Assembly (NCBI RefSeq): GCF_032302195.1
Contig: NZ_CP135275.1
Location: 310,001 to 374,000, forward strand
Origin: Paenibacillus sp. MMS20-IR301
GTDB taxonomy: Bacteria; Bacillota; Bacilli; Paenibacillales; Paenibacillaceae
Length of the DNA: 64,000 nt
Reading direction: 5' to 3'
Of this stretch, positions 16,082 to 35,101 are shown in pieces. Position 1 is the first letter of the stretch. Each line of letters starts with the position of its first letter. Both the position numbers and the translations under genes were made by a program. Below the pieces are notes generated by a model. The model was not told the origin of the DNA and ran no database searches. It saw nothing but the letters and a program-made list of their open reading frames with translations.

Positions 16082-17434
16082 TTAGAGGTTCAGCGATGCT
16101 TCACGTTTATCAAGCAGCTGCTCACGGTTTCTTTTATAATCCTCTTTCCCCAGCGGGTAGAGGAAGGCTGCAATTAATCCGGTAATAATGAAAAGCTCAG
16201 GTGCGAACGTCATCGTGGTCCGGATGGTCCACCGGGCGGGCCCTTCCTGGATTTGATTAGGGACATAACCGGAGGCTTCAAGCAGAATCCCGATCAGGAA
16301 GATAGCGAGTGAATTGGATGTCTTCATGAAGAACGTCATGATACCGGAATACAGTCCCTCACGCCGCAAGCCTGTCCGGAGTTCATCCGCATCTAATACG
16401 TCAGGAAGCATGGACCAGGGGATCACATGCGCAACCCCGTAACCGGTACCTACAATTGCGCCAATAAGATATACAAGATAGGCTGGTGAATCAGGAGTCA
16501 AGAGTATCCAGGCCAGCTGGCTGACGGCCCAGAGGAGCAGCCCGGAGATGATGGTTATCTTCTTGCCTGCTGCCCGGGATACTTTCGTCCAGAGCGGAAG
16601 GGTAAGAACGCCGGCCAGTATAACGGTTACCAGCAGATAAGACATTTCCTCTTCCCGGTGCAGCCAATATTTCATGTAATAGATAACGAAGCCTTCTATG
16701 ACATTGGACGCCGCATAGCATCCGACATAGAGCAGCAGAAGAAGGCGGAAGGCCCTGCTACCCAGTGCAAGCCGGATTTCGGACCCGAAGCGGGGTGTAT
16801 CCACCTTGTCAACGGCACTTCCGCGTTCGCGTTCCCGGGTCCGGAAGAACAGCAGCAGCGGAATGAGGATAATGAACAGGCCGGCTGTAAGCGCCATGAT
16901 TCTGTAGCCCTGGAAGGGATCAGCATAGCTGTCGGCAATCATTTTGGGAATGACGGCAGCGACTAATCCCATAAGGAGCTGCACGATAATCCGGTAGTTG
17001 TTGACGCTGGTGCGCTCGTCATAATCATCAGTCAACTCGGCCACCAGGCTAAGATAAGGCACGTAATAGAGTGTCAATGTGGTCATGAACAGCATATAGG
17101 TTGCAGTAAAATATACGGCATTCAGTGTGACGGAGCCGGCTCCGGGATCACTCCACATGAGGTAGAAAAACAGGCCCACCGGAACTGCAGACAGCAGAAG
17201 GAAGGGTCTTCTCCGTCCCCATCTGGTCCGGGTCCGGTCGGTAATAATCCCCATAACGGGGTCTATGAACGCATCCCATATCCGGCCGATCATAAAGACG
17301 GCTCCGGCGAGTGCCGGTGACAGCCCCGCATAATCCGTCAGGAAAAACAGGTAGTACATGCCAATTACCGTAATCGTAATCACATTTACGGTTTCACCGG
17401 AACCGTAGAGCAGCTTAGTATTCCAACGCAGCAT
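16082..17434 (-). CDS. GPH-family (MelB-like) sugar or glycoside:cation symporter
   Basis: 450 residues with about twelve membrane segments. The GPH signature is visible near the N-terminus: RIWDAFIDPVMGIITDRT followed by RWGRRRPFLL, with Asp residues typical of cation coupling. Members import glycosides, uronides or related solutes with Na+ or H+. It is the last gene of the minus-strand run and lies 14 bases after the PLP enzyme gene, so the two are probably co-expressed. The substrate is unknown; a link to the sulfonate genes rests only on position. Confidence 0.85.
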   Translation of the reverse strand: MLRWNTKLLYGSGETVNVITITVIGMYYLFFLTDYAGLSPALAGAVFMIGRIWDAFIDPVMGIITDRTRTRWGRRRPFLLLSAVPVGLFFYLMWSDPGAGSVTLNAVYFTATYMLFMTTLTLYYVPYLSLVAELTDDYDERTSVNNYRIIVQLLMGLVAAVIPKMIADSYADPFQGYRIMALTAGLFIILIPLLLFFRTRERERGSAVDKVDTPRFGSEIRLALGSRAFRLLLLLYVGCYAASNVIEGFVIYYMKYWLHREEEMSYLLVTVILAGVLTLPLWTKVSRAAGKKITIISGLLLWAVSQLAWILLTPDSPAYLVYLIGAIVGTGYGVAHVIPWSMLPDVLDADELRTGLRREGLYSGIMTFFMKTSNSLAIFLIGILLEASGYVPNQIQEGPARWTIRTTMTFAPELFIITGLIAAFLYPLGKEDYKRNREQLLDKREASLNL

Positions 17435-17448
17435 TCATGTACACTCCC

Positions 17449-18789
17449 TCATTCTGTTTCTTGGCGTCTGCGGGTCATGGAGCTTAGATAGTCCCGCATG
17501 AACCCGTGAGCCAGGGCGGGGTCCGGCAGGCTGCCTACCATGCCGTACATCGCTGTGGAGCCTGCTGTATAGGCTTCCGGATGCCGCTGTACCTGTTCAA
17601 TTGCCTGATGGAGATCAATAATGAAGATATCGACGCTCTCCCTGTGCGCCGGAGTGACCATGAAGTGCAGGCTTGGGGGCAGATGCTGGCGGTCCATATG
17701 CCAGCCCCGGCGCTCAAGCTCGTCGGCGACCGCATACAGGTTTAGTACTTCTGAGCCGACGGCGAAGACACTCATCCGGGGATTGCCCAGGATGTACAGT
17801 TCCGGTACTGAAGCAAGGGCAGCCTGAAGCCTGCGGGTAATCTGCAGCGTGGTGTCCGCGAGACGGCTGTAACCGTCCCGGCCGAGTGCGCGCAGCACAG
17901 CCCATGCCGCCGCAATCGCTCCACCCGGCCGTGTGCCTGCCATCGTCGGGGAAGCAAATAGTCCGCCGGGCCAGTCGCTGCGGACATAGAACTGATGCTG
18001 GCGGTATTCGTCTTCACGGTACAGAACGACAGAGGCCCCTTTGGCGGCATAGCCGTATTTATGGAGATCGGCTGACATCGAGGTTACGCCGGGTACGCGG
18101 AAGTCAAAATCCGGTATAGGCTCACCGGTGTCCTTCAGGAAGGGCAGCATGAATCCCCCGAGGCAGGCATCCACATGAAAGGGAAGCTGATGACGGAGTG
18201 CAAGCGCCGCCAGTTCTGCAATGGGGTCGATCACACCATGCGGATAGGCCGGGGCGGAGCCGGCCAGCAGAATCGTATTTTCGTTAATCAGCTGCCGGGC
18301 AGCAGATACATCTGCCCGGTATTCCTCTGTTAACGGGATATATACAGGCTTGATATCGAAATAAGCTGCCGCTTTGGAGAAGGCCGGATGGGCGGTAACG
18401 GGAAGAAGCAGCTCCGGCTGGCTGATTTCCGGGCGGGTGGCCCGGGCATGGTCCCTTGCTGTTTTGACCGCCATCAGAATACTTTCCGTGCCCCCTGAGG
18501 TCATATTCCCGGCTGTTCCCGGACTGCCGCCCAGCAAATCCGCCGTCATGGACACCACTTCCGTCTCCATTTGCCGCAGGGAAGGGAAGGCCCCTGGGTT
18601 GAGGCCGTTCTCCTGGGAGAATAACTGGTACGCCTGTCTGGTCAAATCAGCAATTTCTTCACCTCCGTAGTAAACCAGGCTCCAGGTGCGGCCCTCACGC
18701 CAATTGGCATCCTCCCCCCGCAGGGCCTGCAGCTGCTCCAGAACCTCCTGCTTTGCTGTGCCGGTAACAGGAAACTGAAATTGTGCCAT
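17449..18789 (-). CDS. PLP-dependent decarboxylase/lyase, sphingosine-1-phosphate lyase-like
   Basis: 446 residues, fold type I, group II decarboxylase superfamily. Visible are MTSGGTESILMA (cofactor phosphate loop), HVDACLGGF (Asp contacting the pyridine nitrogen) and SADLHKYGYAAKG with the PLP-binding Lys. The overall pattern, particularly NPGAFPSLRQMETEV and the short Lys motif, is closest to the DPL1/sphingosine-1-phosphate lyase branch, not glutamate decarboxylase. Bacterial members cleave phosphorylated amino alcohols or decarboxylate amino acids. It lies between an amidohydrolase and a GPH symporter at the 3' end of a sulfonate-uptake run. Cysteate or sulfinoalanine as substrate would be an attractive guess but has no sequence support. 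Confidence 0.8.
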   Translation of the reverse strand: MAQFQFPVTGTAKQEVLEQLQALRGEDANWREGRTWSLVYYGGEEIADLTRQAYQLFSQENGLNPGAFPSLRQMETEVVSMTADLLGGSPGTAGNMTSGGTESILMAVKTARDHARATRPEISQPELLLPVTAHPAFSKAAAYFDIKPVYIPLTEEYRADVSAARQLINENTILLAGSAPAYPHGVIDPIAELAALALRHQLPFHVDACLGGFMLPFLKDTGEPIPDFDFRVPGVTSMSADLHKYGYAAKGASVVLYREDEYRQHQFYVRSDWPGGLFASPTMAGTRPGGAIAAAWAVLRALGRDGYSRLADTTLQITRRLQAALASVPELYILGNPRMSVFAVGSEVLNLYAVADELERRGWHMDRQHLPPSLHFMVTPAHRESVDIFIIDLHQAIEQVQRHPEAYTAGSTAMYGMVGSLPDPALAHGFMRDYLSSMTRRRQETE

Positions 18790-18837
18790 AGGTGAACACT
18801 GCCTTTCTCTGTAAGATTCTGCTGCTGTAATCTGTAA

Positions 18838-20466
18838 CTACTGCTGTGAAGCTATAGCTGATTCCGCCTGGACATACACCTGACGGCCGCCGATAATCGT
18901 CCGGAGAACAGGAATCTTATGAAGCTCCAGGGGATCAGCAGTCAGCGGATTATCGGCGAGAACGACCAGGTCAGCCAGCTTGCCGGGCTCAATAGAGCCT
19001 TTGTCTTGCTCCTCGAATGCCTGCCAGGCGGCATCGATCGTGACGGCGCGCAGCGCCTGATAAGGCGTGATCCGGTATTCCGGGCCCAGTTCCCGGCCGC
19101 TGGATGTCAGCCGGTTAACGGCGACGGATACGAGATGGAGCGGAGAGGGCGGGGTGATCGGTGTATCATTATGCAGCGAGAAACGGATGCCCCTGTCTAC
19201 GGCTGAGCGGAGCGGGCTGATCCGGCGGGCCCGGTCTTCACCCAGATAGATGTCACGGTGGTTATCGCCGAAATAATAGACATGATCGTTGAAGAAGGAA
19301 GGGGTGATCCCTAGTTCCTTGATCCGGTCCAGCTGATCCTCCCGTACGGACTGGGCATGCTCAATTCTATGGCGTGCGTCCGGCCGCGGCAGCTGCCGCT
19401 GGGCTTCGCCGATGGCATACAGCACATCATCGATGGCTGCGTCCCCGTTGGCATGGATGACTACCTGGCGCCCGGCGGAGTGAGCAGCGAGTACGGCTTC
19501 TGCCAGCTCCTCTCTTTCCAGCATAGGAAATCCCCGGTACAGCGGATCATCCTCGGAGAATGGGGTGTGATACGGGTTGGTGAGCCAGCCGGTGTATCCT
19601 TGGATGGAGCCGTCCTGAAACAGCTTAGCGCCTTGAGATTTGACTGAACCATAGTCATACGCGTCCTTCAGCGGAGCCTGCTCCGGATGAAATAACGGGA
19701 TATTGATCAGCCGGAGCTCCAGCAGCCCGCGGCTGCGGGCCGCTACAAGCGGTTCCGGGTCAATGCCTACCGCGATAATAGCAGTGGTGATGCCTTGCGA
19801 GAGGTATTCGGCATTCGCCAGCCTGATCCCCTCCGCATGCTGCTCCGCAGATAACGGGGGAATATAGGCTTCGATTAATGCGCCATTTTCCTGGATTAAG
19901 CCTGTAGGCTCCCCGTCGGGATCACGCTGGATAACACCAATGGCCGGGGCAGGGGAATCCTGCGTAATTCCGGCAATGGCCAGTGCCCTGCTGTTCGCCA
20001 CACCCATATGCGCCGAGTTATGGGACAGCCATACCGGATGCTCAGGGAAAGCCTGATCCAGCTCATAGCGGCTGGGATGCCGCTTCTCCGCAAGCTTGGA
20101 AGGATCATAGCCGAAGCCGGTTACCCAGCCCCCGGCCGGAATGGCCGCAGCCTTTTCTTTCAGTGCCGCAAGCAGCCCGGCAATACTGGTGATGGTGCCG
20201 CGCGGCGGACTCCACAGTGCAGCAGACTGTACCTCCAGAATTCCGCTTAGCGGGAAATGACCATGCGCTTCATAGAACCCGGGCAAGACTGTCTTTCCCT
20301 GGAGATCGATGACTGCCGTTTCCGGTCCTGCCAGCTCCAGAAGCTCCGCCGTGCTGCCCACTGCAGCTATACGCTCTCCTCGCACGGCTATTGCTTCCGC
20401 AGTGGTTCCTTCCTGATCAAAAGTCAGGACTATGCCGTTAATATAGATCTGTTCCGGATATGCCAT
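18838..20466 (-). CDS. YtcJ-like metal-dependent amidohydrolase
   Basis: 542 residues, matching the YtcJ/NfdA amidohydrolase family. The metal motif HGH appears in LPGFYEAHGHFPL, with VIHANGDAAIDD, RHRIEHAQSV and LHNDTPITPPSP as further metal/active-site motifs, and the usual C-terminal SIEPGKLADLVVLADNPL. No signal peptide, so cytoplasmic. Family members hydrolyse N-formyl or other amide bonds, though most are uncharacterised. The gap to the upstream permease is 74 bases and to the PLP enzyme 48 bases. Confidence 0.85.
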   Translation of the reverse strand: MAYPEQIYINGIVLTFDQEGTTAEAIAVRGERIAAVGSTAELLELAGPETAVIDLQGKTVLPGFYEAHGHFPLSGILEVQSAALWSPPRGTITSIAGLLAALKEKAAAIPAGGWVTGFGYDPSKLAEKRHPSRYELDQAFPEHPVWLSHNSAHMGVANSRALAIAGITQDSPAPAIGVIQRDPDGEPTGLIQENGALIEAYIPPLSAEQHAEGIRLANAEYLSQGITTAIIAVGIDPEPLVAARSRGLLELRLINIPLFHPEQAPLKDAYDYGSVKSQGAKLFQDGSIQGYTGWLTNPYHTPFSEDDPLYRGFPMLEREELAEAVLAAHSAGRQVVIHANGDAAIDDVLYAIGEAQRQLPRPDARHRIEHAQSVREDQLDRIKELGITPSFFNDHVYYFGDNHRDIYLGEDRARRISPLRSAVDRGIRFSLHNDTPITPPSPLHLVSVAVNRLTSSGRELGPEYRITPYQALRAVTIDAAWQAFEEQDKGSIEPGKLADLVVLADNPLTADPLELHKIPVLRTIIGGRQVYVQAESAIASQQ

Positions 20467-20540
20467 AGGGGCACCCGCCTTTCTTTTATGGAATAAATTC
20501 TTCTATATAACCTTGTGATTGTACAAGCTTGCCGGCAGCA

Positions 20541-21344
20541 TCAGCCTTTATAGGCCTCCCTCCAGTGCAGCAGCCTTGCTTCAAGCAGCCGCACCAGCGA
20601 GTCGGACAGCTTGCCGACAGCCGCGAAGATGCCGATGCCGACAAATACGGCCGCGGTTTGCGAATACTGGCGTGCTTCGGCAATCATGTAGCCGATACCG
20701 GAGCTGGCCCCCATCAGCTCGGCTACTACCAGACAGAGCCAGGCTATGCCCAGGGACAGGCGGAACCCCAGCAGAATGTTAGGCAGTGCGGCTGGAATGA
20801 TGAGGCGGAGGATCTGCTGCAGCCGGGAATACTGGAGGACCCGGGCTACCTCATGCAGCTTGCGGTCAACTCCCCGGACACCTGCGAAGGTATTGACATA
20901 TAAGGGGAAAAAGGACCCGAGTGCAATGAGCAGCACCTGCGACAGCTGGCCCACCCCGAACCAGAGAATAAACAGCGGAATGACCGATAAGAGCGGAACC
21001 GTCCGCATCATTTGCAGGGAAGGATCGAGCAGCTCCTCCACCAGTCTGGACAGTCCGGAAGCCAGCCCGATGATCAGCGCGAGTGATCCGCCGAGAGCGA
21101 AGCCGGCAGCGGCCCGGATGATGCTGGCTTCCAGGTGTATCCACAGCTTGCCGTTTCCCGCCAGCCGGATGAATTCCTTCCCGATCTCCCACGGCGCCGG
21201 CAGCAGCGAAGGGGAGATCAGGCCGGTGGCTCCCGCAGTCTGCCACAGCAGCAGCAGAGCCAGCGGAAAGATCCAGGCCTGCAGCGCATCCGGCAGTCTC
21301 GCGGACCGCGCCGGTTTCACGCTTGTTTTTCTAATCATGTTCAT
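20541..21344 (-). CDS. SsuC/TauC-type ABC permease, second copy
   Basis: 267 residues from ATG 21344, which has GGGGGAG before it and overlaps the previous gene's stop by four bases; longer in-frame starts would run deep into that gene. About six membrane segments and the permease EAA-type loop (EVARVLQYSRLQQILRLIIPAALPNIL). It is clearly paralogous to the upstream permease along the whole length (for example LGFRLSLGIAWLCLVVAELM against LGIRLSLGAAWLGLVVAEMM). Together they could form a heterodimeric channel for the Ssu-like importer. Sulfonate, nitrate and pyrimidine-precursor importers share this family. Confidence 0.86.
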   Translation of the reverse strand: MNMIRKTSVKPARSARLPDALQAWIFPLALLLLWQTAGATGLISPSLLPAPWEIGKEFIRLAGNGKLWIHLEASIIRAAAGFALGGSLALIIGLASGLSRLVEELLDPSLQMMRTVPLLSVIPLFILWFGVGQLSQVLLIALGSFFPLYVNTFAGVRGVDRKLHEVARVLQYSRLQQILRLIIPAALPNILLGFRLSLGIAWLCLVVAELMGASSGIGYMIAEARQYSQTAAVFVGIGIFAAVGKLSDSLVRLLEARLLHWREAYKG

Positions 21345-22186
21345 AGATTCTCCCCCAGATAGCTGTCCCGCCAGCGGAGCAGCCGCTTCTCCAGCAGCTT
21401 GACCAGCGAATCCGTCAGTTTCCCGACGATGGCGAAGATCAGGATGCCTACAAAAACCAGCGAGGTGATCGAGAAATACCTTGCATCCATAATCAGATAA
21501 CCTACCCCTTCGCTTGAGCCCATCATCTCGGCCACTACCAGTCCAAGCCACGCCGCGCCAAGTGACAGGCGGATGCCCAGCAGGATATTTGGCAGAGCGG
21601 CCGGCAGGATTAGCTTCGCAATCAGACTCCGGCGGTTAAACTGCAGTACCTTTGCCACTTCAAACAGCTTCTCGTCCACTGACCGGATACCGAGAAAGGT
21701 ATTTACATACACCGGGAAAAAGGCGCCTAGTGCAATCAATAGAATCTTGGATTCTTCCCCGAAGCCGAACCAGAGAATGAATAATGGCGTGATGGCCAGA
21801 TGGGGGACGGTCCGCAGCATCTGAATGGACGGGTCCAGCTGTTTCTCTGCCAGCCGGGAGAAGCCGGACCACAGTCCAAGGGCCAGCCCCAAAGACCCTC
21901 CCAGCAGGAAGCCGAGCAGCGAGCGCCATAAAGATATCCGCAGATGGTAGAGGAGCTCCCCCGACCCGGCAAGATGATAGAATTCCAATGCAATAACGTG
22001 GGGAGTGGGCAGAACGGTAGGACTGATCCCTCCAGCCGTTCCGGCAATTTCCCAGATTACAAGAGTCAGTGCAGGCAGCAGCAGTCCTTTGAAAGTGGTC
22101 TTCCGCTTGCCTTGCCTGTCACCGGGCCTTCTCTTGCCTGCGGCGGCAGGGAGTGCCACCCTTTCCTCCAGCCGGATGCTCTGCAT
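21341..22186 (-). CDS. SsuC/TauC-type ABC permease, first copy
   Basis: 281 residues from ATG 22186, selected because GAGGTGG stands seven bases upstream, just after the binding-protein stop; an in-frame ATG at 22222 lies inside that gene. Six membrane segments with the EAA-type loop VAKVLQFNRRSLIAKLILPAALPNILLG. Belongs to the sulfonate/taurine/nitrate permease family. Ends overlapping the start of the second permease copy, so both are made from one message in a coupled way. Confidence 0.88.
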   Translation of the reverse strand: MQSIRLEERVALPAAAGKRRPGDRQGKRKTTFKGLLLPALTLVIWEIAGTAGGISPTVLPTPHVIALEFYHLAGSGELLYHLRISLWRSLLGFLLGGSLGLALGLWSGFSRLAEKQLDPSIQMLRTVPHLAITPLFILWFGFGEESKILLIALGAFFPVYVNTFLGIRSVDEKLFEVAKVLQFNRRSLIAKLILPAALPNILLGIRLSLGAAWLGLVVAEMMGSSEGVGYLIMDARYFSITSLVFVGILIFAIVGKLTDSLVKLLEKRLLRWRDSYLGENL

Positions 22187-22196
22187 AGTGTCCACC

Positions 22197-23288
22197 TCAG
22201 GATTTCGGCTCAGCGGCGGCATCCTTAATGGCCTGCTCGATAAACTGGTTATCTACCACCTTGGAGACATCAATTTGCTTGCGGATCGTTTTCTGCTCCA
22301 GCTGGAAGTCCGCGGTTTCCTGCTGCTGGGCAATGACCTCGTCACTGATCGGCAGGTTAATCGGGGTTACGCGGTCACGCAGCGCCTTGATTACAGCCGC
22401 ATCCACCTGGAACTGCTCTGCATACGCCGCAGTGGCTTCCTCCAGATGCTGGTCCTCCCAGACACGGGCCTGCTCATACACCTTCAGGAACGAGGTGATT
22501 AATTCCGGATGCTCCTCGGCAAGCTTGGTTCTTGCAATCAGGAAGGAAGGGGATAAGACGCCCAAGGCTTCACCGTCTGTCAGAACCTTTGCTTTGCCGG
22601 TCAGCACATTCGTTGTAATGTAGGGGTCCCAGGTTGCCCATGCATCCACTCCCCCGGTTTCAAAAGCGGGCTGCGCTTCATTAGGCTGCAGCTGGATGAT
22701 CTCCAGGTCGGAAGGCTTAAGCCCGGCTTTATCCAGACCGCGGTACAGGAAGTTGAACGCATTGCTGCCTTTGGCCACGGCAACCTTCTTGCCCTTCAGC
22801 TGTTCAACTGTGGTGATCGTGCTGTCCTCCGGAACGATGATGGCTACATTATTCTTGCCGTCGATGATATTGGCGATTTCAGTGAAGCCGATATCCGCTG
22901 CCTGGGCAGTGACCACCGGCAGATTGCCAAGGCCGGCGAAATCGAGGCGCCCGGCGGCAATGGCTTCCGTCATCGGCGGACCGCTCTGGAACTCCGCCCA
23001 GTCCACCTTCACGCCGACCTTATCGAATTCCTCCTCGAACCAGCCCTTGCTGCGGGCCAGCGAGTAGGCGCCGGGTCCGGGCTGGATGCCGATCGTCAAG
23101 GTCAATCCGCCGTAATCCTTAGCGGCAGGTGCAGGGGCTGCCGTTGCCGCCGCCGCAGGTGCTTCAGTGGCCGCAGCGGTTTTATCCGCAGTATTGGATG
23201 CCGTGGCTCCGTTGCTGCCGCAGCCAGACACCAGAAGTGTCAAAGCGGTTAATGCCATCCAGGCTGTGCTTTTACTAAATAGTTTCAT
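22197..23288 (-). CDS. SsuA-like sulfonate-binding lipoprotein
   Basis: 363 residues. The lipoprotein signal peptide ends in LLVSGCGS with the lipid-attached Cys at 22, followed by a low-complexity Ala/Pro linker to about residue 58. The mature part is a type-II periplasmic-binding fold of the aliphatic sulfonate/taurine/nitrate family: LTIGIQPGPGAYSLARSKGWFEEEFDKVGV, AIAAGRLDFAGLGNLP, LKGKKVAVAKGSNAFNFLYRGL and VDAWATWDPY. It lies 11 bases before the first permease and 45 after the ATPase gene. Confidence 0.87.
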   Translation of the reverse strand: MKLFSKSTAWMALTALTLLVSGCGSNGATASNTADKTAAATEAPAAAATAAPAPAAKDYGGLTLTIGIQPGPGAYSLARSKGWFEEEFDKVGVKVDWAEFQSGPPMTEAIAAGRLDFAGLGNLPVVTAQAADIGFTEIANIIDGKNNVAIIVPEDSTITTVEQLKGKKVAVAKGSNAFNFLYRGLDKAGLKPSDLEIIQLQPNEAQPAFETGGVDAWATWDPYITTNVLTGKAKVLTDGEALGVLSPSFLIARTKLAEEHPELITSFLKVYEQARVWEDQHLEEATAAYAEQFQVDAAVIKALRDRVTPINLPISDEVIAQQQETADFQLEQKTIRKQIDVSKVVDNQFIEQAIKDAAAEPKS

Positions 23289-23333: not shown

Positions 23334-24101
23334 CTAAAGACTGGCTGTTCTTGTTTCTTCCACTTTCTCAAATTCGTTGAGTACGGTCCGGCGGTACTGC
23401 TCAAAGGCTGTACTGGCTTTCCGGCGGGGATGGGGCAGCTCTATATGCTGGAGACTCTGGATCTGCCCGGGCCGGGCATTCATTACAACTACACGTTCCC
23501 CGAGGAAGACCGCCTCATCCAGGTCATGGGTGACCAGCAGCATCGTCGTTTTGTCCTTCTGCCAGATATCCAGCAGCACCTCCTGCATGTGGGAACGGGT
23601 GAATGCATCCAGCGCGCCGAAGGGCTCATCCAGCAGCAGCACCTTGGGGCCGCGCAGGAGTGCACGGGCGATGGCGACACGCTGGGCCATCCCGCCCGAG
23701 AGCTCCCGGGGGTAAGCCTGTTCGAACCCTTTCAGCCGGACCAGCCCGATGAGTTCCTCCACACGGCGACGGATCTTAGGGTCCTTCAAGGAAAGATTGC
23801 CGGCAATATTTTTCTGCACAGTCAGCCAGGGGAACAGGCGGGGCTCCTGAAAAATAAAGCCTTTCTCTATGCTGGGCCCCAGAATAGGCTGGCCGTTCAG
23901 CAGAATTCTGCCTTCATAGGCGTTATCCAGCCCGGCGATGATCTTGAGCAGGGTGCTCTTGCCGCAGCCGCTGGGGCCGATAATGGTGACGAATTCGCCT
24001 TCACTGACAGATAGGCTGATATTATGCAGGGCCTGCACCTGTCCCTGGGGGACGGTGAAGGCTTTGTGCAGACCGCTGATCTGCAGGATGTGACTGTTCA
24101 T
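23334..24101 (-). CDS. SsuB-like ABC transporter ATPase
   Basis: 255 residues. Walker [11 protein letters not shown]-loop FQEPRLFPW, signature LSGGMAQR and Walker [14 protein letters not shown] followed by the switch His in VTHDLDEA. The [12 protein letters not shown] form is typical of the SsuB/nitrate/taurine subfamily. Lies 13 bases after the monooxygenase gene and powers the binding protein and permeases downstream. Confidence 0.9.
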
Positions 24102-27232: not shown

Positions 27233-27249
27233 AATGATTCCTCCCCTAT

Positions 27250-28056
27250 CTATTCTTTGCCCTTCCACGGAACCGCTTTGCGTTCAATGGCCCGCAGTCC
27301 GGCGTCAATCCACATTCCGGTAATGCCCATAATGATAATCCCTACGAAAATAATATCGCTCCGCAAAAATTTGCTGGCATCGAGTACCATCCAGCCGATA
27401 CCGGTTACTGCCGCGACCATTTCAGCCGCAACCAGTGTCGTATAGGAGACACCGACGGCTGTTCTGAGGCCGATGAATATATCCGGCAGACAGGCGGGAA
27501 ACACAACATGGAAGAAGATCTGCCGGCTGTCAGCCCCAAGGGTATAAGCGCCGTCAATATAATCCTGCTTCAGCTTACGCACGCCCGACTCGCAGGCAAT
27601 AAATACAGGGGCAAAGCCGGCCAGATACAGCAGGGCAATCTTGGAGGAATCCTCAATGCCCATCCACAGCACGAGCAGGGTATAATAGGCGAGCGGCGGA
27701 AGCGGACGGTAAAATTCAACAAGCGGATACATGATGGCGCGGACTTTAGAGTTATAACCGCTTAGCAGCCCGAGGGGGATAGCGGTCAGGATGACCAGCA
27801 CGAAGGAGCTTAACAGCCGCATCATGCTGTCTCTAAGATGTGTCAGCAGGCTATTATCCTTGTACCCTTCCTGCAGAATATGAATGAAGCTTGTAAATAC
27901 TCTGTTAGGAGAAGGGACGAGAATTTCAGGCACGAGCTTAAGCTCTGTGAGAGCGAACCATAACAGAAGCAGAATAAGAATAGTACTTATGGTTAACAGC
28001 CGCTCAGCCTTTACTAGTCTGCGGGCCCAGCGGCGTAAATTTGCAAGCTTCTCCAC
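27250..28056 (-). CDS. TauC-like ABC permease
   Basis: 268 residues, six membrane segments, EAA-type loop IDGAYTLGADSRQIFFHVVFPACLPDIFIG. It belongs to the same family as the two SsuC-like permeases downstream but is clearly more distant from them than they are from each other. Ends 17 bases before the TTG start of the binding-protein gene. Presumed membrane channel of the taurine importer. Confidence 0.86.
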   Translation of the reverse strand: MEKLANLRRWARRLVKAERLLTISTILILLLLWFALTELKLVPEILVPSPNRVFTSFIHILQEGYKDNSLLTHLRDSMMRLLSSFVLVILTAIPLGLLSGYNSKVRAIMYPLVEFYRPLPPLAYYTLLVLWMGIEDSSKIALLYLAGFAPVFIACESGVRKLKQDYIDGAYTLGADSRQIFFHVVFPACLPDIFIGLRTAVGVSYTTLVAAEMVAAVTGIGWMVLDASKFLRSDIIFVGIIIMGITGMWIDAGLRAIERKAVPWKGKE

Positions 28057-28073: not shown

Positions 28074-28098
28074 GGGCAGTATGGAAGCATGACTGCCC
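28074..28098 (-). other. Intercistronic hairpin
   Basis: GGGCAGT and ACTGCCC pair, extended by ATG/CAT with one bulge and a GAAG loop, between the aminotransferase and permease genes. It could adjust the relative amount of the two parts of the transcript. No T tract follows on the transcribed strand. Confidence 0.4.
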
Positions 28099-28110
28099 CC
28101 TTAATGAGAG

Positions 28111-29496
28111 CTACAGTTGTCTGCGGAGAGCCTTCCCCAGCGCCCCGGTGATTCTGTCGATTCCGTATTTATCAATGATAAGCGGAGGCGCCATGTACAG
28201 CACGTTGTTATAGCCCGGCACACTGCGCGTCATCCTGCCGATAATTACGCCTTCTTCCCGGGCAGCGGCAACAACTTGCGCGAGCCGGTTCTCAGGCAGC
28301 GGCACCTTGGAGCGTTTATCCTCCACCAGTTCAACGCCAGCCAGTAAACCCTGCCCGCGGATGTTGCCGACAATAGGCAGCACCTCAAGCTCCCTCAGGC
28401 ACTCCAGCAGATAAGCACCCATGACAGCACTATTCTCCGCGAGGCGCTCCTCTTCAATAATCCGGATGTTCTCCAGTGCCGCCACCGAGCTGCCCGCGCA
28501 GCCGCCGAAGGTACTGATGTCGCGGAAGAAGCCGTCCGGCTCCTCCGGTCCGGCCAGGAACTGGCTGAAGATTTCTTTCCGTGCAAGCGTGGCCGAGATC
28601 GGCATATAGCCGCTTGCCAGACCTTTGGCCAAGGTGATGATATCGGGCTCTACATCGTAATGCTGGTGCCCGAACAACGCCCCAGTTCTGCCGAAGCCGG
28701 TAACAACCTCATCCAGAATCAGCAGGACACCGTAACGTCTGCAGATTTCCTGCAGCACCGGGTAATACTCCGGAACCGGAGGGATGATCCCGCCGCCGGC
28801 GGTTACCGGCTCCAGAATGACTGCGGCCACCGAATCCTCGCCTTCCTGCTGTATCACCTGTTCAAGGGCGCGTGCACAGTCGATATTGCAGCCGGGATAG
28901 CTTTTGCCGAAGGGACAGCGGTAACACAGGGCATGGGGAATCTCGGCGAAGCCTTCCGGCAGCGGACCGAAATCCGCCTTCCGTTCCTGCTGCCCGCTGC
29001 TGGCCAGCGCAGCCAGGGTGGTGCCGTGATAATCGCGGTTCCGGTATATAATCTTGTATTTCTTCTTACCGGGTGACTTCACGGCGAAGTATTGCCGCAC
29101 CATCTTGAACGCTTTCTCATTCGCTTCGGAGCCGCTGTTCGAGAGATAGACCTTAGGCAGCGAAGGCAGCAGGGAGGCAAGCTTCGCGGCCAGCATAATG
29201 TAAGGCGGGGTGGCCATAGAACCGGCATAATAGGGTAATGTCTTAAGTTGCCTGCTCACGGCATCCGCAATGCTCTCTCTGCCGTGTCCCACATTGACAA
29301 CCCATACGCCTCCGGACAAGCCGTCCACGAACTCCCTTCCCTGTATATCCTTCAGCATGTAGCCTTTACCTTCAGCCATAATCGGCGGCTCCTGTGTTTC
29401 ATAGAGCCTGTGATTGGTGAGATGCAGCCACAGATGCTCGCGGTGAAGCTCTGCCAGTTCAGCTGCTTGAGGTACACCGGTCAATGTCTGTTTCAT
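28111..29496 (-). CDS. Class III aminotransferase, probable taurine:pyruvate type
   Basis: 461 residues, fold type I omega-aminotransferase. Visible are YLSNSGSEANEKA (PLP phosphate), YHGTTLAALA, LILDEVVTGFGRTG (Asp at the pyridine nitrogen) and DIITLAKGLASGYMPISA with the PLP Lys. The N-terminus EHLWLHLTNHRLYE and the SGGVWVVNVGHGRE segment are like taurine-pyruvate aminotransferases, which convert taurine to sulfoacetaldehyde. A Cys-rich insertion (CYRCPFGKSYPGCNIDC) is present, as in several members of this branch. First gene of the minus-strand run, divergent from gntR, directly upstream of the TauABC-like importer, so taurine is the best substrate guess. Confidence 0.8.
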   Translation of the reverse strand: MKQTLTGVPQAAELAELHREHLWLHLTNHRLYETQEPPIMAEGKGYMLKDIQGREFVDGLSGGVWVVNVGHGRESIADAVSRQLKTLPYYAGSMATPPYIMLAAKLASLLPSLPKVYLSNSGSEANEKAFKMVRQYFAVKSPGKKKYKIIYRNRDYHGTTLAALASSGQQERKADFGPLPEGFAEIPHALCYRCPFGKSYPGCNIDCARALEQVIQQEGEDSVAAVILEPVTAGGGIIPPVPEYYPVLQEICRRYGVLLILDEVVTGFGRTGALFGHQHYDVEPDIITLAKGLASGYMPISATLARKEIFSQFLAGPEEPDGFFRDISTFGGCAGSSVAALENIRIIEEERLAENSAVMGAYLLECLRELEVLPIVGNIRGQGLLAGVELVEDKRSKVPLPENRLAQVVAAAREEGVIIGRMTRSVPGYNNVLYMAPPLIIDKYGIDRITGALGKALRRQL

Positions 29497-29522
29497 TCCT
29501 TGGCCTCCAAATAAACATAATA

Positions 29523-29566
29523 AAGGCTAAGTTACGTCTCCCCGGAAAGGAGCGCAGCTTAGCCTT
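29523..29566 (-). promoter_or_regulatory. Structured leader between promoter and aminotransferase gene
   Basis: In the minus-strand transcript AAGGCTAAG pairs perfectly with CTTAGCCTT, enclosing a smaller CTCC/GGAG stem, followed by an A then TTATGTTTATTT and the GGAGG of the aminotransferase gene. The shape is that of an attenuator or a 5' stabilising hairpin. No known riboswitch core was recognised. Confidence 0.45.
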
Positions 29567-29624
29567 CAGTGGTCTGATCAGCTGTATAAGATTGGTTGAT
29601 ACATAAATTACCACACCGAAATTC

Positions 29625-29652
29625 AACCTGTCAACAGGTTGTACGGACAACC
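29625..29652. promoter_or_regulatory. Overlapping palindromes, probable GntR operator over two divergent promoters
   Basis: Two palindromes overlap by four bases: AACCTG-TCAA-CAGGTT (29625-29640) and GGTTGT-ACGG-ACAACC (29637-29652). On the plus strand TTGTAC (29639-29644) is 17 bases from TATAAT (29662-29667), a good promoter for gntR. On the minus strand TTGACA (29634-29629) serves the aminotransferase operon. A regulator bound here would cover both -35 boxes at once. Confidence 0.68.
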
Positions 29653-29712
29653 AGACAATGCTATAATATATAATCGCATATGTTTACTTGGAATTATTAT
29701 AGGACAGAGAGG

Positions 29713-30450
29713 ATGATAGGTGTAGTGCTCGACAGAAATAATTCAATTCCTTTGCATTTACAAGTAAGGAATTTACTCCGGAACGATATATTTAAAGGCA
29801 ACTACACTGAGAAAATCCCGGCTGAGCATGTACTGATGGATAAATATTCTGTAAGCCGGGCAACGGTCCGCCGGGCGATCCGCACCCTGATTGATGACGG
29901 CATGCTTGAGTCCCGGCAGGGCCTTGGTACATTCGTAGCTGTACGGCCGATTGAAGAATGGCTGGGCAATCTGAGCACATTCTATGACATTATCGGCGAG
30001 CGCGGACTGACCCCCGATATCCGGGTGCTGAAGCAGGGAATTGTGGAAGCGCCGCAGGATGCAGCGGCAATCTTCGGGGTCCCGCAGCTGTACGAGACCA
30101 TCCGGCTGCGCCTGGCGAATGATACACCGGTTGTGCTGGAGACACAATATTATCCTCCTGAGATCGGGGAGAAGCTGGCCTTGCTGGATCTAAGCAATGT
30201 GTCCACCTACGATGTGCTGGAAACGGAGCTGGGTCTTAATCTGTGGGAAGCACAGCAGACGATAGCCGCTATTATTCCGGCTGCGGAAGAGAAGAAGCTG
30301 CTGGGCATGACTGCCGAACCAAGCTGCGCGCTGCTGTCCAAACGGCTGGTGCTGGATCATGACGGGAATCCGCTGGAATATGAGAAAAGCATTTACCGTG
30401 CAGATAATTATGCTTTCCGGATTAATCTGACCCGCAGAAGAAAGCTGTAA
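29713..30450 (+). CDS. GntR family regulator with UTRA domain
   Basis: About 245 residues. The GntR winged helix is clear (SIPLHLQVRNLLRNDI, then VSRATVRRAIRTLIDDGMLE and the wing RQGLGTFV), followed by an HutC-type UTRA ligand domain (TIRLRLANDTPVVLETQYYP, YEKSIYRADNYAFRI). The start is uncertain: ATG 29680, ATG 29713 and GTG 29725 share the frame; promoter position favours one of the later two. Lies between the sulfonate importer run and the glycyl radical enzyme and is the obvious regulator of both. The effector would be a sulfonate or a breakdown product. Confidence 0.87.
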   Translation: MIGVVLDRNNSIPLHLQVRNLLRNDIFKGNYTEKIPAEHVLMDKYSVSRATVRRAIRTLIDDGMLESRQGLGTFVAVRPIEEWLGNLSTFYDIIGERGLTPDIRVLKQGIVEAPQDAAAIFGVPQLYETIRLRLANDTPVVLETQYYPPEIGEKLALLDLSNVSTYDVLETELGLNLWEAQQTIAAIIPAAEEKKLLGMTAEPSCALLSKRLVLDHDGNPLEYEKSIYRADNYAFRINLTRRRKL

Positions 30451-30531
30451 TTGTGAACCTTCCCGGACGTTTTAATTAATTTTATTGACAAAATAAACTT
30501 AGCCGCTTTACGATGGATCACATAATTTAAC

Positions 30532-30557
30532 AAATCCTACTGGTTTAGTTAGGATTT
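30532..30557 (+). promoter_or_regulatory. Palindrome before the glycyl radical enzyme gene
   Basis: AAATCCTA and TAGGATTT form a perfect inverted repeat with a ten-base spacer, immediately before the GGGGGAG ribosome binding site. A TTGACA box lies at 30485-30490. It may be an operator or a leader hairpin; the sequence differs from the palindromes upstream of gntR. Confidence 0.45.
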
Positions 30558-30573
30558 AGTTGGGGGAGATCTT

Positions 30574-33051
30574 ATGACGGTTCAACCGGTATTGTCGGCG
30601 CAGGAACAAAGACTTCTTCTCGCGCCCGGAGAGCGGACCCTTCCCGGGCATGAGCGGGCGGTCCGGATTCTCCATTCGTTTCAGAACCAGCGTCCCAAAA
30701 TTGATGTGGAGCGGGCCCGCCTGTTTACCGAATCCTTCAGGCAGACCGAAGGGGAAGCCCTGATTCTGAGATGGTCCAAGGCACTCCTCCATATTGCAGA
30801 GCATATCACCGTCTATATAGACGACGAACAGCTGATTGCGGGACGGGGCGGGCGCACAGGGCGGTACGGCATCCTCTATCCGGAGCTCGATGGTGACTAT
30901 CTGGATACTGTAATCAGAGAGCTGCCCGGCCGCGGCCAGTCTCCGTTTGATCTGACTGCTGAAGATGCTGATATTATTGTGAACGAGATTTCACCGTACT
31001 GGAAAGGCCGGACCTTTCATGAGGCGCTTGCGGCCGCACTGCCCGCCGATACGCTGAAGGTGACCTATGATCCGGAAGACCCGCTGAAATCCAGATTCAT
31101 CGTCAACGAAACGGCATCCTTCCGGTCATCCATCCAGTGGGTGCATGATTATGAGAAGGTGCTGCGCATTGGCTATAAGGGGATCAAGGAGGAGGCGCTG
31201 CGGGAGATCGGGCAGCTCGACCCGTACAGTCCGGTTGACAACATGGAGAAGCTGCCCTTCCTGCAGGCTATAGTGAATGTATCGGACGCCATCGTACTGT
31301 GGGCGAACCGGCATTCTGCGCTTGCTGCCAGTCTGGCGCTAAGCGAAGCTGATCCTGCGCGCCAGGCCGAGCTGCGGAGAATTGCTGCTATCTGCTCGCA
31401 TGTGCCGGAGCATCCGCCCCGCAGCTTCCATGAAGCGGTACAGTCGCAATGGTTCGTCCAGATGTTCTCCAGGCTGGAACAGAAGACAGGGACGGTCATT
31501 TCGAATGGAAGGATGGACCAGTATCTGTATCCGTTCTACCGGAAGGATTCTGAGCTGGGACGGATTAACGATGAACAGGTTATCGAACTGCTGGAATGTG
31601 TATGGAATGCGATGGCCCAGTTCCTCGATCTTTACATCTCGCCGACGGGCGGTGCCTTTAACGAAGGGTATGCGCACTGGGAAGCGGTAACGGTCGGCGG
31701 ACAGACGCCGGGCGGGCTGGATGCGACCAATGAGCTCACTTATCTGATGCTTCAGTCCAAACGGGAATTTCCTTTGAACTATCCCGATCTGGCAGCCCGG
31801 ATCCATACAAGGGCACCGGAACGCTACTTGTATGAGGTGGCGGAGACAATCAAGGAAGGCTCGGGTTTCCCCAAGCTGATCAATGACGAAGAGGTAGTGC
31901 CGCTGCTGCTGGCCAAGGGGGCGACCTTCGAGGAAGCCTATGATTATGCGGTATCAGGCTGTGCAGAATGCCGGATGCCCAACCGGGACACGTATACGAG
32001 TCCGTGCGCTTACATCAATTTTGCCGCTGCCGTTGAGATGACGCTGCGCAACGGGCAAATGCTGCGTTATCCCGGCGAGACGCTCGGGCTTGAGACGGGT
32101 GAAGCGGCCAGCTTCCTTTCGTGGGAACAGTTCTTTGCTGCCTATAAAGCCCAGCAGAAGTATTTCCTGAAGCATGCGTTCATCCAGCAGCACGCGATTA
32201 TCCGGCTGCGCAGCAGTCATTTTGCCGCTCCGTTAAGCTCCTCCATGCATAAGCTGTGCCTCCAGAATTATAAGGATATCCATGAACCGCATATCGAGGG
32301 CGGAATTGACCTTGGCTATTTCGAATTTATCGGCTACGGTACGGTAATCGATTCTCTGGCTGCCATTAAAAAAGTAGTCTTCGAGGATAAAAGGATTTCG
32401 ATGACCCGGCTCATAGAGGCGCTGGACCATGATTTTGAAGGTTATGAGGCGGTCCGGCAGGTGCTGGCCCATGCGCCAAGTTACGGTAACAACGATGATT
32501 ATGCGGATTCGATTGCTAAGGAGCTGGATGAAGAAGCCCTGAAATTCACCCGCGCGTACTCGAAGGAGCTTGGAGTGAACCTGGATCTCCGGTACGTTCC
32601 GTTTACGTCCCATGTTCCGTTCGGCAAGGTTGTCTCAGCTACCCCTAACGGCCGCAAAGCCTACTCTCCGCTTGCAGACGGCTCCTCCGCCTCGCACGGC
32701 GCAGACATTAACGGACCAACGGCTGTCCTGCTCTCCAACTACTACTCCAAGAACTACAACTACCGGGAAAGAGCCGCGAGACTGCTCAATATTAAACTTA
32801 CGCCTTCTGTTATTGAAGGAGAAGAGGGAAGCTTTAAGCTCGTCTCTTTCATCCGGACCTGGAGCGATTTGCGCCTCTGGCATCTGCAGTTCAACATTAT
32901 TAACAGGCAGACGCTGCTGGACGCGCAGCGCGACCCGGAGCAATACCGTAATCTGCTGGTGCGGATCGCCGGCTACAGCGCTTATTTCACAGATCTCTCA
33001 GAGGATCTGCAGAATGATCTGATCCGGAGAACCGGGCATACGGCAATCTGA
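30574..33051 (+). CDS. Glycyl radical enzyme, probable sulfonate (isethionate-type) sulfite-lyase
   Basis: 825 residues, full length for a glycyl radical enzyme of the eliminase branch. The active site has Cys463 and Glu465 (SGCAEC), the Cys-x-Glu pair found in dehydratases, choline lyase and sulfite-lyases but not in pyruvate formate-lyase. The C-terminal loop RIAGYSAYF carries the radical Gly800. [16 protein letters not shown] is the usual family segment. Its activase gene overlaps its stop. Substrate is inferred from the neighbours: with a taurine-type aminotransferase, importers and a dehydrogenase around it, isethionate cleavage to acetaldehyde and sulfite fits best; dihydroxypropanesulfonate or a non-sulfonate substrate remains possible. 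The enzyme would be destroyed by O2 when activated, in contrast to the O2-requiring SsuD nearby. Confidence 0.78.
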
Positions 33052-34016
33052 TGCGAGAACCAAGGAGCAGCCGGGGCAGGAATGGGCAGGAATGGAGAAT
33101 GGGAATGGTGCATCAGCCGGTTCAAGGCAATATCTTCAATATTCAAAGATATTCAGTGCATGACGGTCCGGGCATCCGTACCGTAGTGTTCATGAAGGGA
33201 TGTCCGCTGCGCTGCAAGTGGTGCAGCAATCCGGAATCATGGCTGTCTGCCCGGGAAATGTATTATGATGCAGGCAAATGTATCGGTGCTGCAGCCTGCG
33301 GCTTCTGTCTTGCGGCCTGTGGACACGGCGCTATCTCAGTGAATCGGGACAGCGGGAAGGTGGAGATGAACCGCGGAAGCTGTGCCGAAGGCTGTCTGGA
33401 TTGCGCGGCCGCCTGTCCGGCCCAAGCCATTGATGTGTACGGACGTCTGATGACGGTGGACGAGGTGCTGAAGATTGCCGAACAGGACAGTATGTTCTAT
33501 GCAAGATCCGGCGGCGGCCTGACGCTCAGCGGAGGGGAGGCTACTGCCCAGATCGGATTCGCTGAAGCTCTGCTGGCCGGAGCGAAGCGGCGGCGGATCC
33601 ACACCGCAATGGAAACCTGCGGCCACACTCCCTGGAGCCATTTCAGCAGGCTGCTGCCCGGCCTGGATATGATCCATTATGATTTGAAGTCACTTAACGA
33701 GCAGGCTCACCGTAAGTTTACCGGGGTAGCTCCGCATTTGATCAAAGACAATCTGGAACGCCTGAGCCGTTCGTTCGAGCCCGGCCGGATCGTAGTCCGC
33801 ACCCCGGTCATTCCCGGGTTCAACGACACGGCCGGAGACATTGCGGAGATTGCCGGATTCGTCGCCAGCCTGGGCATCCGCCACGAGCTGCTGAAATACC
33901 ACCGGTACGGCTCGGTGAAATATGGTTTGCTGGGCAGGGTCTACGAGCTTGGGCAAGCGGATCTATCAGCTGAGCGGTTCGCAGAACTCGCCGGGGTTGC
34001 GGCCCGGTATTCCTGA
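33051..34016 (+). CDS. Glycyl radical enzyme activating protein, radical SAM
   Basis: Up to 321 residues. Radical SAM cluster motif CPLRCKWC (Cys51, Cys55, Cys58) after the family start RYSVHDGPGIRTVVFMKG. Two ferredoxin-type Cys clusters follow (CIGAAACGFCLAAC and CAEGCLDCAAAC), the arrangement of activases for GRE eliminases, unlike the short PFL activase. It generates the glycyl radical on the enzyme encoded just upstream. ATG 33051 overlaps the upstream stop by one base; ATG 33105 with GGAGA before it gives a family-like N-terminus and may be the true start. A terminator follows at 34051. Confidence 0.88.
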   Translation: MREPRSSRGRNGQEWRMGMVHQPVQGNIFNIQRYSVHDGPGIRTVVFMKGCPLRCKWCSNPESWLSAREMYYDAGKCIGAAACGFCLAACGHGAISVNRDSGKVEMNRGSCAEGCLDCAAACPAQAIDVYGRLMTVDEVLKIAEQDSMFYARSGGGLTLSGGEATAQIGFAEALLAGAKRRRIHTAMETCGHTPWSHFSRLLPGLDMIHYDLKSLNEQAHRKFTGVAPHLIKDNLERLSRSFEPGRIVVRTPVIPGFNDTAGDIAEIAGFVASLGIRHELLKYHRYGSVKYGLLGRVYELGQADLSAERFAELAGVAARYS

Positions 34017-34050
34017 TAAGCGTCAGGTGAGCATAATCACTTACCACTGA

Positions 34051-34098
34051 AGGGCTGTTTCCAAGAGCCGGTTCAAGGCTTGCGGGACAGCCTTTTTT
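34051..34098 (+). terminator. Rho-independent terminator after the activase gene
   Basis: GGGCTGT-TTCC and GGGACAGCC pair with one mismatch and are followed by TTTTTT, 35 bases past the stop. It marks the end of the glycyl radical enzyme operon and separates it from the dehydrogenase gene. Confidence 0.75.
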
Positions 34099-34229
34099 GG
34101 CGCGGGAAACGTTTTTTATTGTATAGGCATTTATGCAAAGTGAGAAAGTGCGGATAAGGGTGAAAAAGCGACTAAGCAGCTTGGAACGACACTCACGGGT
34201 GTCAGGATACCTCGGCAGCAGAACAATAG

Positions 34230-34382
34230 ATGGATAATGTACACTTGTTAAAAGAACGAAGGCCTCAGGTAGTGCAGGAAATCAGCCATTATGCTATAAA
34301 TTACGGCCATCCGTATATATCTGGTTTTGAATACATGGCCTACAATGAAGTAGACAAATATGATAAGGAGGCGCTGCGATGA
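34230..34382 (+). CDS. Small open frame of 50 codons before the dehydrogenase
   Basis: ATG 34230 follows a stop codon directly and the frame ends inside the start of the next gene (CGATGA overlap). The peptide, with HYAINYGHPYISGFEYMAYN, looks protein-like with balanced composition, but I see no ribosome binding site and no family. It may be the surviving end of a deleted gene or a small coupled protein. The rest of the 34099-34229 interval shows no gene. Confidence 0.3.
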   Translation: MDNVHLLKERRPQVVQEISHYAINYGHPYISGFEYMAYNEVDKYDKEALR

Positions 34383-35101
34383 AGTGGGCATTAGTAACCG
34401 GAGCTGACCGGGGAGTCGGACTCAGCCTGGTAAAGGGACTGCTTGAACGGGGATATTCTGTGTTTGCCGGACATTATGCCGGAAGCGGGGAAGAGCTGAA
34501 GCTGCTGGAGGAGGCCAGTGCAGAACGGCTGCGGGTGCTTCCGCTCGATATCAGCGATGCGGATAGTGTAGGCAAGGCACTGGAAGCGGTTGCGGCAGCT
34601 ACGGACCGGCTGGATATCCTGATTAATAACGGGGCAATCCTGGGGGATATGCAGGCTACGGTGGAGGATGAGCTGGACTTTGAAGAAATGGACCGGGTAT
34701 TCCGCGTGAATGCGCTGGGTTCGCTGCGGATGTCAAACGGACTGATCGGGCCCGTTATGGCAAGTGGCAGCAAGATGATCGTCAACATCTCCTCCGAGGC
34801 GGGCAGCATCGGGAGCTGCTGGCGTAATTCCTGGTACGCCTACTGCATGTCCAAGGCTGCTCTCAATATGCAGTCCCAGCTGATTCATAACCAGATATCA
34901 CCGCAAGGCGGCAAGGTCATGGTCATTCATCCCGGCCATGTACAGACTTATATGCAGGGTAAGCTGGATGTGTCGGGCAGCCTGACACCGGATGAATCTG
35001 CCGGGCATATTCTTAGGCTGGTGGATGAGCGGCTGGCGCCAGATTATACCGGGGAGGGGCTGACCCTCATTGATTATGAAGGCCGGACACTCCCGTGGTA
35101 A
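34379..35101 (+). CDS. Short-chain dehydrogenase/reductase
   Basis: 240 residues, classical SDR length. TGADRGVG nucleotide loop near residue 7, NNGA at ~81, catalytic Ser in NISSEAGS and YCMSK as YxxxK. AGGAGG lies seven bases before the ATG. It could be the sulfoacetaldehyde reductase that would feed isethionate to the glycyl radical enzyme, since SDR members do this in other bacteria, but it lies beyond a terminator and has its own upstream region, so an unrelated role is equally open. Directly convergent with the lacI gene (18-base gap). Confidence 0.83.
   Translation: MKWALVTGADRGVGLSLVKGLLERGYSVFAGHYAGSGEELKLLEEASAERLRVLPLDISDADSVGKALEAVAAATDRLDILINNGAILGDMQATVEDELDFEEMDRVFRVNALGSLRMSNGLIGPVMASGSKMIVNISSEAGSIGSCWRNSWYAYCMSKAALNMQSQLIHNQISPQGGKVMVIHPGHVQTYMQGKLDVSGSLTPDESAGHILRLVDERLAPDYTGEGLTLIDYEGRTLPW

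Follow-up and report, generated by a model that had tools for sequence, protein, structure and literature searches.

A probable taurine-centred sulfonate scavenging locus in Paenibacillus, with an IslA-type glycyl radical enzyme, SsuD and a candidate capnine lyase

Bilophila wadsworthia carries taurine through isethionate to sulfite by way of Tpa, SarD and IslA/IslB, as set out in the portions of PMC6453916 and PMC8473560 available to us. This route, the alkanesulfonate system SsuEADCB and the gut clostridial clusters of TauABC, aminotransferase, iron-type alcohol dehydrogenase (Fe-ADH) and IslAB are the known systems with which we compare a locus of Paenibacillus sp. MMS20-IR301, whose 7.69 Mb genome forms a single contig. 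The locus lies at positions 16082 to 35101 of a 64,000-nucleotide stretch of that genome (NZ_CP135275.1; G000:C1:310001-374000), which as a whole we call the window and from whose first base coordinates are counted. It probably represents a locus for scavenging sulfonates, centred on taurine and conserved in a few Paenibacillaceae, and the block seems to import sulfonates and to free their sulfur by both an oxygen-using and an oxygen-free enzyme.

Three feeder arms would serve this locus. TauABC would bring in taurine; an SsuABC-type importer and an amidohydrolase would supply alkanesulfonates and perhaps N-acyl-taurines; and a symporter resembling MFSD2A, with a pyridoxal phosphate (PLP) enzyme resembling sphingosine-1-phosphate (S1P) lyase, would perhaps supply capnine, split into fatty aldehyde and taurine. 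A Tpa-type aminotransferase would convert taurine to sulfoacetaldehyde, and a reductase with no assigned gene would take this on to isethionate. Without oxygen, an activase would install the radical on an IslA-type glycyl radical enzyme (GRE), which would cleave isethionate to acetaldehyde and sulfite; with oxygen, SsuD would free sulfite from alkanesulfonates, drawing on an SsuE encoded elsewhere, and CysI could reduce sulfite for assimilation. Matches over the SsuE and CysI cut-offs are indeed found elsewhere in the genome. Gene content, order, families, residues and conservation form the sequence basis of this scheme; the substrates throughout, the reduction step and the regulatory scheme are inferred from it.

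The leftward arm, on the reverse strand, runs from 29496 to 16082 in a row of 12 genes: the aminotransferase, tauC, tauA, tauB, ssuD, ssuB, ssuA, ssuC1, ssuC2, the amidohydrolase, the S1P-lyase-like enzyme and a symporter of the GPH/MFS_2 family. Intergenic gaps in this row span -211 to 84 bp, the lowest value arising because the listed start of ssuC2 (20541..21551) is probably too long, its relative in the related genome G054 having 267 residues. On the forward strand lie gntR (29680..30450; GntR/UTRA, PF07702 105.7 bits and PF00392 54.5), the GRE gene (30574..33051) and the activase gene (33051..34016), the last two overlapping by 1 bp, with a gene for a short-chain dehydrogenase/reductase (SDR; 34379..35101, PF00106) 362 bp further on. 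The importers, aminotransferase, SsuD, GntR, GRE, activase and SDR named in an earlier note on this DNA are all present as open reading frames of the broad families it gave; its inventory had passed over the symporter, the S1P-lyase-like enzyme and the amidohydrolase.

This arrangement is not peculiar to one strain. Among 394 genomes of the family, a GRE match at E 1e-100 occurs in 17, five of them (this genome included) at at least 90% identity and the other 12 at 33-34%, and the block recurs in five of the 394, from two genera; P. sinensis (G085) and Paenibacillus sp. S150 (G106) share the genus of the window genome. The window and G054 carry all 12 leftward genes together with gntR, GRE and activase. 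The P. sinensis locus is without tauBAC, that of Fontibacillus is without ssuB and ssuD, and that of S150 is without lyase and symporter, both gone together. What all five loci have in common is the aminotransferase, gntR, GRE, activase, SsuA, both SsuC-like permeases and the amidohydrolase, and SsuD shares a locus with the GRE in the window and in three of the other four (G054, P. sinensis and S150, Fontibacillus being the exception). The gene order, most of it repeated in four other genomes, is not due to chance, and since the block recurs in five genomes the oxygen-using and oxygen-free halves, whose union was the core of the earlier note, are not joined in this strain alone. The locus borders a gene for an SLH-domain protein (13914-16067), as it does in G054 (81%), which means that both genomes carry the block at the same place.

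The GRE (PF02901, PF01228; Cys-x-Glu site C463-A-E465) scores 1283 and 1199 bits against two solved IslA enzymes, with HpsG at 1141 bits and CutC, glycerol dehydratase and HypD all below 500; its identity is 68.1 and 63.6% to the solved IslA enzymes and 60.2% to solved HpsG. It is thus of the sulfonate C-S lyase type, and does not cluster with a non-sulfonate branch. The available part of a study of B. wadsworthia IslA lists the residues that were varied there: R189, I192, Q193, W374, C468, E470, R678, V680, F682 and G805 (PMC8473560). With the numbering checked against the 7kq3 chain, the window GRE keeps all ten, and 11 of the 11 IslA positions compared. Nine of the ten are kept in every one of its 80 GRE relatives (the best 80 of 157); the tenth, position 192, is Ile in 70 of them and Leu in the remaining 10. 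Most of these residues are also present in HpsG; at positions 192, 196 and 682, the window enzyme has I, H and F as both solved IslA enzymes do, in contrast to L, P and I in one solved HpsG (6lon). On active-site residues and neighbouring genes, and not on a tree, the GRE is of the IslA type, and cleavage of isethionate to acetaldehyde and sulfite is its predicted reaction. The radical-SAM activase beside it scores 328.9 bits with TIGR02494 (PFLE_PFLC; cut-off 174.35) and 393.7 with NF048010, below that model's cut-off of 430.

The aminotransferase (28111..29496), a class III enzyme, is 51-53.5% identical to five plasmid matches annotated as Tpa, among 40 matches listed, and 31-33% identical to the enzymes of the IslA clusters L017, L020, L022 and L035. 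The NCBIfam Tpa model is absent from the models listed for it; its top subfamily, PRK07678, is that of Rhizobium Tpa as well. The enzyme is of the Tpa type, closer to annotated Tpa than to the aminotransferases of gut-type IslA clusters.

Several findings weigh against placing taurine at the centre of the locus. Taurine models are the top-scoring ones for TauA (26201..27268; TIGR01729 254.7, cut-off 304.25), TauB (25357..26181; PRK11248 252.4, cut-off 357) and TauC (27250..28056; PRK10160 235.4, cut-off 342), and all three proteins fall below these equivalog cut-offs, as do both SsuC-like permeases (PRK11365 259.7 for the first, 21341..22222, and 238.4 for the second, cut-off 347) and the ATPase in the SsuB position (23334..24101; top model SaoA 246.2, cut-off 360). 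The SsuA-like binding protein (22197..23288) passes its own (TIGR01728 269.9, cut-off 163.5). SsuD is missing from the Fontibacillus locus and TauABC from that of P. sinensis, so neither is indispensable. To our knowledge, moreover, SsuD does not act on taurine itself. Finally, none of the five genomes has SarD over the NF050025 cut-off of 700 bits (a genome search for IsfD was not made) or Xsc over the TIGR03457 cut-off of 676.4 (best 313), and none of the other four loci has the SDR within the 7 to 10 kb that was read downstream of its GRE. The pathway therefore has a gap, the step from sulfoacetaldehyde to isethionate being without a named enzyme.

The earlier note's route to isethionate accordingly keeps its aminotransferase and loses the SDR as a conserved neighbour. 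Beside the activase in this genome only, and of doubtful membership in the locus, the SDR is set aside as a conserved sulfoacetaldehyde reductase, and is here a positional candidate for that step; IsfD (6IXJ, a code given in the available part of PMC8473560) is not among the 14 chains that it matches at E 1e-15. Generic Fe-ADHs are present in the genomes. An Fe-ADH near a Serratia GRE (L045) was discarded as a SarD query, itself scoring 267.7 against the SarD cut-off of 700, and its matches in the window genome resemble lactaldehyde reductase. Elsewhere in the window genome, an Fe-ADH frame of 890 residues has a PFL-like match close by (G000:C1:807999 and 810191); this frame might be AdhE, and could take acetaldehyde further.

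Bacteroidota of soil, sea and gut carry sulfonolipids in their outer membrane. Capnine, the sulfonolipid base, and N-acyl capnine are described as sulfur analogues of S1P and ceramide-1-phosphate in the part of PMC9304779 open to us, and sulfonolipid synthesis has been partly worked out (PMC9304779, PMC10191378, again from partial texts). A breakdown pathway for sulfonolipids or capnine appears neither among the literature matches listed, a coverage that mostly leaves out subscription journals, nor in the available portions of PMC9304779, PMC10191378 and PMC13232883. It is against this background that the lyase and carrier, the most unusual part of the locus, deserve attention.

The PLP enzyme (17449..18789) scores 425 bits against the Symbiobacterium S1P lyase StSPL, to which it is 48.6% identical over 420 positions, and 409 against the human lyase, as compared with 137 against MfnA; its nearest NCBIfam model is also MfnA, at 262.1, below the cut-off of 299.4. 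Fourteen StS1PL residues are tabulated in the accessible part of PMC6148460, and the window enzyme is identical at 11. Among those of the PLP site and entry (G168, T169, H310, S353, C276, H201, K311, D274, Y482), eight of nine are identical, S353 being Thr; among those that bind the substrate phosphate (Y105, H129, A103, N126, K317), three of five are kept, the changes being H129N and A103L. In the Burkholderia S1P lyase, positions 129 and 103 pair Q with T (PMC6148460, same part). At E 1e-30, S1P lyase matches occur in five of the 394 family genomes: four at at least 83% identity, all inside this operon, and one (G061) at 30% over part of the protein. That all four lyase genomes should fall within the five GRE genomes has a hypergeometric chance of 5e-9, a figure that ignores relatedness.

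The accompanying symporter (16082..17434; TIGR00792 285.4 bits, cut-off 231.35) has MFSD2A as its best solved relative, at 155.3 bits versus 139.9 for MelB. In a paralogue control, two of the four other GPH paralogues over the cut-off in this genome gave 67.2 v 148.2 and 51 v 137.8 for MFSD2A and MelB, both favouring MelB, the sugar carrier. By BLAST it scores 181 and 184 against symporters that stand beside S1P lyase homologues in two other Bacillota (L176, L177), as against 103-110 for the four paralogues; reverse searches from those symporters give a smaller preference (147 v 82-124 and 153 v 84-137). This affinity suggests that carrier and lyase may be an older pair. The third protein of the arm, an amidohydrolase (18838..20466; PF07969 349 bits), has no close solved relative (best 112.6 bits), and a role as an N-acyl amidase is a guess. 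A rumen Ruminococcus metagenome-assembled genome encodes a 40% relative of it within an IslA-type locus, next to Ssu-like genes (L026:8882-10480), a neighbourhood that ties the amidohydrolase to sulfonates without the lyase.

Taken together, a catabolic route for sulfonolipids can be drawn, which we put forward tentatively, as a possibility somewhat short of probable: the MFSD2A-like symporter would import capnine, from which the amidohydrolase may remove N-acyl groups, a capnine lyase would split it to release taurine and a fatty aldehyde, and sulfite would follow by way of Tpa and IslA without oxygen, alongside SsuD with oxygen. By analogy with S1P lyase, the cleavage would be a retro-aldol reaction yielding taurine, the expected substrate of the Tpa-type enzyme whose gene heads this row, and no kinase would be needed because the sulfonate is already on capnine. 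If true, this bacterium may feed on the sulfonolipids of other bacteria, and with a candidate lyase and carrier coupled to taurine desulfonation, the question of sulfonolipid breakdown becomes testable with one purified enzyme.

A rival account, in which the substrate of lyase and symporter is a phosphorylated sphingoid base or some other non-sulfonate compound and their place in the operon has other causes, strikes us as rather unlikely, although several observations fit it and tell against capnine. Three of the phosphate-site residues (Y105, N126, K317) are kept, and H129N with A103L, the two changes that do speak against this account, are common to homologues without sulfonate neighbours, for which reason we have dropped them as a sulfonate signature. 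In the nine Bacillota stretches read, no tau or ssu gene could be recognised next to a homologue. In L176:4749-7733 and L177:7905-10873, the S1P-lyase-like gene and a GPH symporter gene adjoin divergently without recognisable sulfonate genes; in four other Bacillota (L169:9316-11998, L170:7940-10539, L171:4849-7028, L172:9061-11610), with lyase-like genes 50-59% identical to that of the window, the adjoining carrier is one that we take to be DUF819; and plasmids from Rhizobium, Sinorhizobium, Sulfitobacter and their relatives (L162-L167) encode proteins of 37-41% identity, annotated merely as class V aminotransferase, whose genes adjoin those of amino-acid ABC transporters and in some cases M20 hydrolases. 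With carriers so varied, the family has several substrates. S150, moreover, lacks lyase and symporter and has the remainder of the locus. Against all this stands the fact that the close (at least 83%) lyase, in its 4 of 394 genomes, is found every time inside this operon. The plasmid homologues were set aside as independent support for the capnine lyase: in Rhizobium sp. CCGE532, an IS element and further genes separate the homologue from tpa, some 6 kb away, and no tpa is annotated in the stretch of the R. acidisoli locus that was read.

It is unlikely, too, that the substrate of the S1P-lyase-like enzyme is a short amino acid with a sulfonate group, cysteate for example being decarboxylated to taurine, and that the symporter imports a small compound, which would leave a C2/C3 sulfonate locus without lipids. 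The same product, taurine, would then feed Tpa; MfnA-type decarboxylases are related enzymes; and the alphaproteobacterial plasmid homologues beside amino-acid ABC transporters fit such a substrate. GPH carriers are mostly of the sugar type, and the margin of the symporter over MelB, about 15 bits, is modest. The enzyme itself is nonetheless far closer to S1P lyases (424.6 bits) than to MfnA (136.7) or to glutamate decarboxylases (74.6 at best), and the symporter is nearer MFSD2A than MelB, both points against this account.

SsuD (24115..25272), the FMNH2-dependent alkanesulfonate monooxygenase, exceeds the cut-off of its model (TIGR03565 612.5 bits, cut-off 518.2) and scores 548 bits against 1m41, an SsuD structure of E. 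coli type. Its pairing with the GRE extends beyond the Paenibacillaceae. In the fetched flanks of the 80 GRE relatives, where many contigs are short and absent neighbours mean little, SsuD at at least 60% identity is found at four: L001 and L002 (Paenibacillus), L052 (Sodalis) and L053 (Brenneria). In the Sodalis locus (9983-18214), SsuD directly follows the activase and is accompanied by an omega-aminotransferase and TauABC-like genes; in the Brenneria locus (1-17782), it starts some 3 kb past the activase, with TauABC-like genes on the opposite side. Both proteins exceed the SsuD cut-off, and no SsuD is seen in the flanks of two further Enterobacterales loci, L043 and L045. The different gene order in Sodalis and Brenneria suggests that the pairing of an IslA-type GRE with SsuD arose more than once, a pairing absent from the titles and abstract openings of the literature matches listed. 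A locus that combines oxygen-requiring and oxygen-sensitive desulfonation, as in Paenibacillaceae and, with its genes ordered differently, in Enterobacterales, could keep sulfonate sulfur within reach of bacteria whose oxygen supply changes. The earlier note's broader idea, sulfonate sulfur with or without oxygen from one locus, thus holds in part: both desulfonation types are present and conserved together, and the idea is weaker for the SDR and for the use of taurine with oxygen, the latter because SsuD is, so far as we know, inactive on taurine itself.

Whether the two arms answer to one regulator is a related matter. A GntR protein with a UTRA domain is encoded between them, as the earlier note had stressed, and control of both arms by it is plausible. 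The palindrome GGTTGTACGGACAACC (29637..29652), which sits in the 183 bp between aminotransferase and gntR and is conserved across five loci, Fontibacillus having one change, is plausibly a GntR operator; it occurs at this single place in the window, with no second copy before the GRE. Since 37 of 100 shuffles contained at least two matches when scanned at 3 mismatches, the scan lends the palindrome no support, which comes from the five-locus alignment alone. A promoter-like TTGACA-18-TACGAT (30485..30514, forward strand) precedes the GRE in five of five loci. In the gap before the aminotransferase operon (29497-29600) lies a conserved inverted repeat, AAGGCTAAG / CTTAGCCTT, which no Rfam family matches; an RNA regulator was rejected, the sole Rfam match being a sub-threshold miRNA hit.

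These features, a palindrome solely before gntR and the aminotransferase and a GRE with its own promoter-like sequence, are what one would expect of two neighbouring, separately controlled desulfonation systems, as is the piecemeal loss of TauABC in P. sinensis, of SsuB and SsuD in Fontibacillus, and of lyase and symporter in S150. We nevertheless think it improbable that the arms do not form one programme, given that aminotransferase, gntR, GRE and activase stay together in five of five loci and that SsuD accompanies the GRE in four of the five, the window included.

An HpsG-type identity for the GRE, with (S)-DHPS as the substrate of such a sulfolyase, is very unlikely: the points in favour, a score of 1504.5 with the HpsG model NF048011 (cut-off 1000), the identity of 60.2% to solved HpsG and a long HpsG branch that the tree does not separate from the IslA rows, are outweighed by the still higher score (1563.1) that the same model gives to an IslA-type enzyme, by I, H and F at positions 192, 196 and 682, and by the Tpa-type aminotransferase and TauABC of the locus. 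The higher-scoring enzyme, from Desulfovibrio sp. A2 (L060), is 82.8% identical to D. vulgaris IslA, so NF048011 is not diagnostic; the NCBIfam name HpsG that follows from it, which speaks against IslA, was set aside on this ground, and automatic annotation may label other IslA enzymes sulfopropanediol dehydratase. The trees, built on 38 of 82 aligned GRE rows and then on 28 (10 locus rows dropped, one outgroup row added), help less. In the second, the window enzyme joins L001-L005 at 100/100, the one grouping of it that is certain, and HpsG sits on a long branch whose position is uncertain, again a point against a clean IslA assignment; with outgroup branches saturated at 7.8 to 10 changes per column, the rooting is unreliable. 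The 825-residue enzyme, which the earlier note had wished to see placed in a tree, thus stands apart from CutC, HypD and glycerol dehydratase by score, and IslA and HpsG are not told apart by the tree.

Set beside known systems, the locus has both likenesses and differences. The lyase-like enzyme resembles StSPL and human SGPL1 (48.6% identity to StSPL, PLP-site residues kept save S353, which is Thr), and differs in H129N and A103L of the substrate-phosphate pocket and in being encoded in a taurine operon. The MFSD2A lysophosphatidylcholine symporter, the best solved relative of the locus symporter, is a remote one, the locus protein being bacterial and of predicted substrate. With SsuEADCB the locus has in common an SsuD over its cut-off, an SsuA-like protein, permeases and an ATPase; here, however, SsuE is encoded elsewhere in the genome, there are two permease genes, and the system is joined to an IslA arm. 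The gut clostridial TauABC-aminotransferase-Fe-ADH-IslAB clusters (L020, L022) share TauABC-like proteins at 49-64%, a GRE at about 70% and an aminotransferase within the cluster, which is however of another subfamily (PRK06062, 31-33%), and their fetched stretches contain no SsuD, lyase or GPH symporter. Unlike the B. wadsworthia pathway, the present one has no SarD over the cut-off, its locus includes ABC importers, SsuD and gntR, its host is of the Paenibacillus type, and among the window genes neither a TRAP transporter nor microcompartment genes like those of B. wadsworthia are seen; what the two share is the type of taurine aminotransferase, an IslA-type GRE with its activase, and sulfite as the product.

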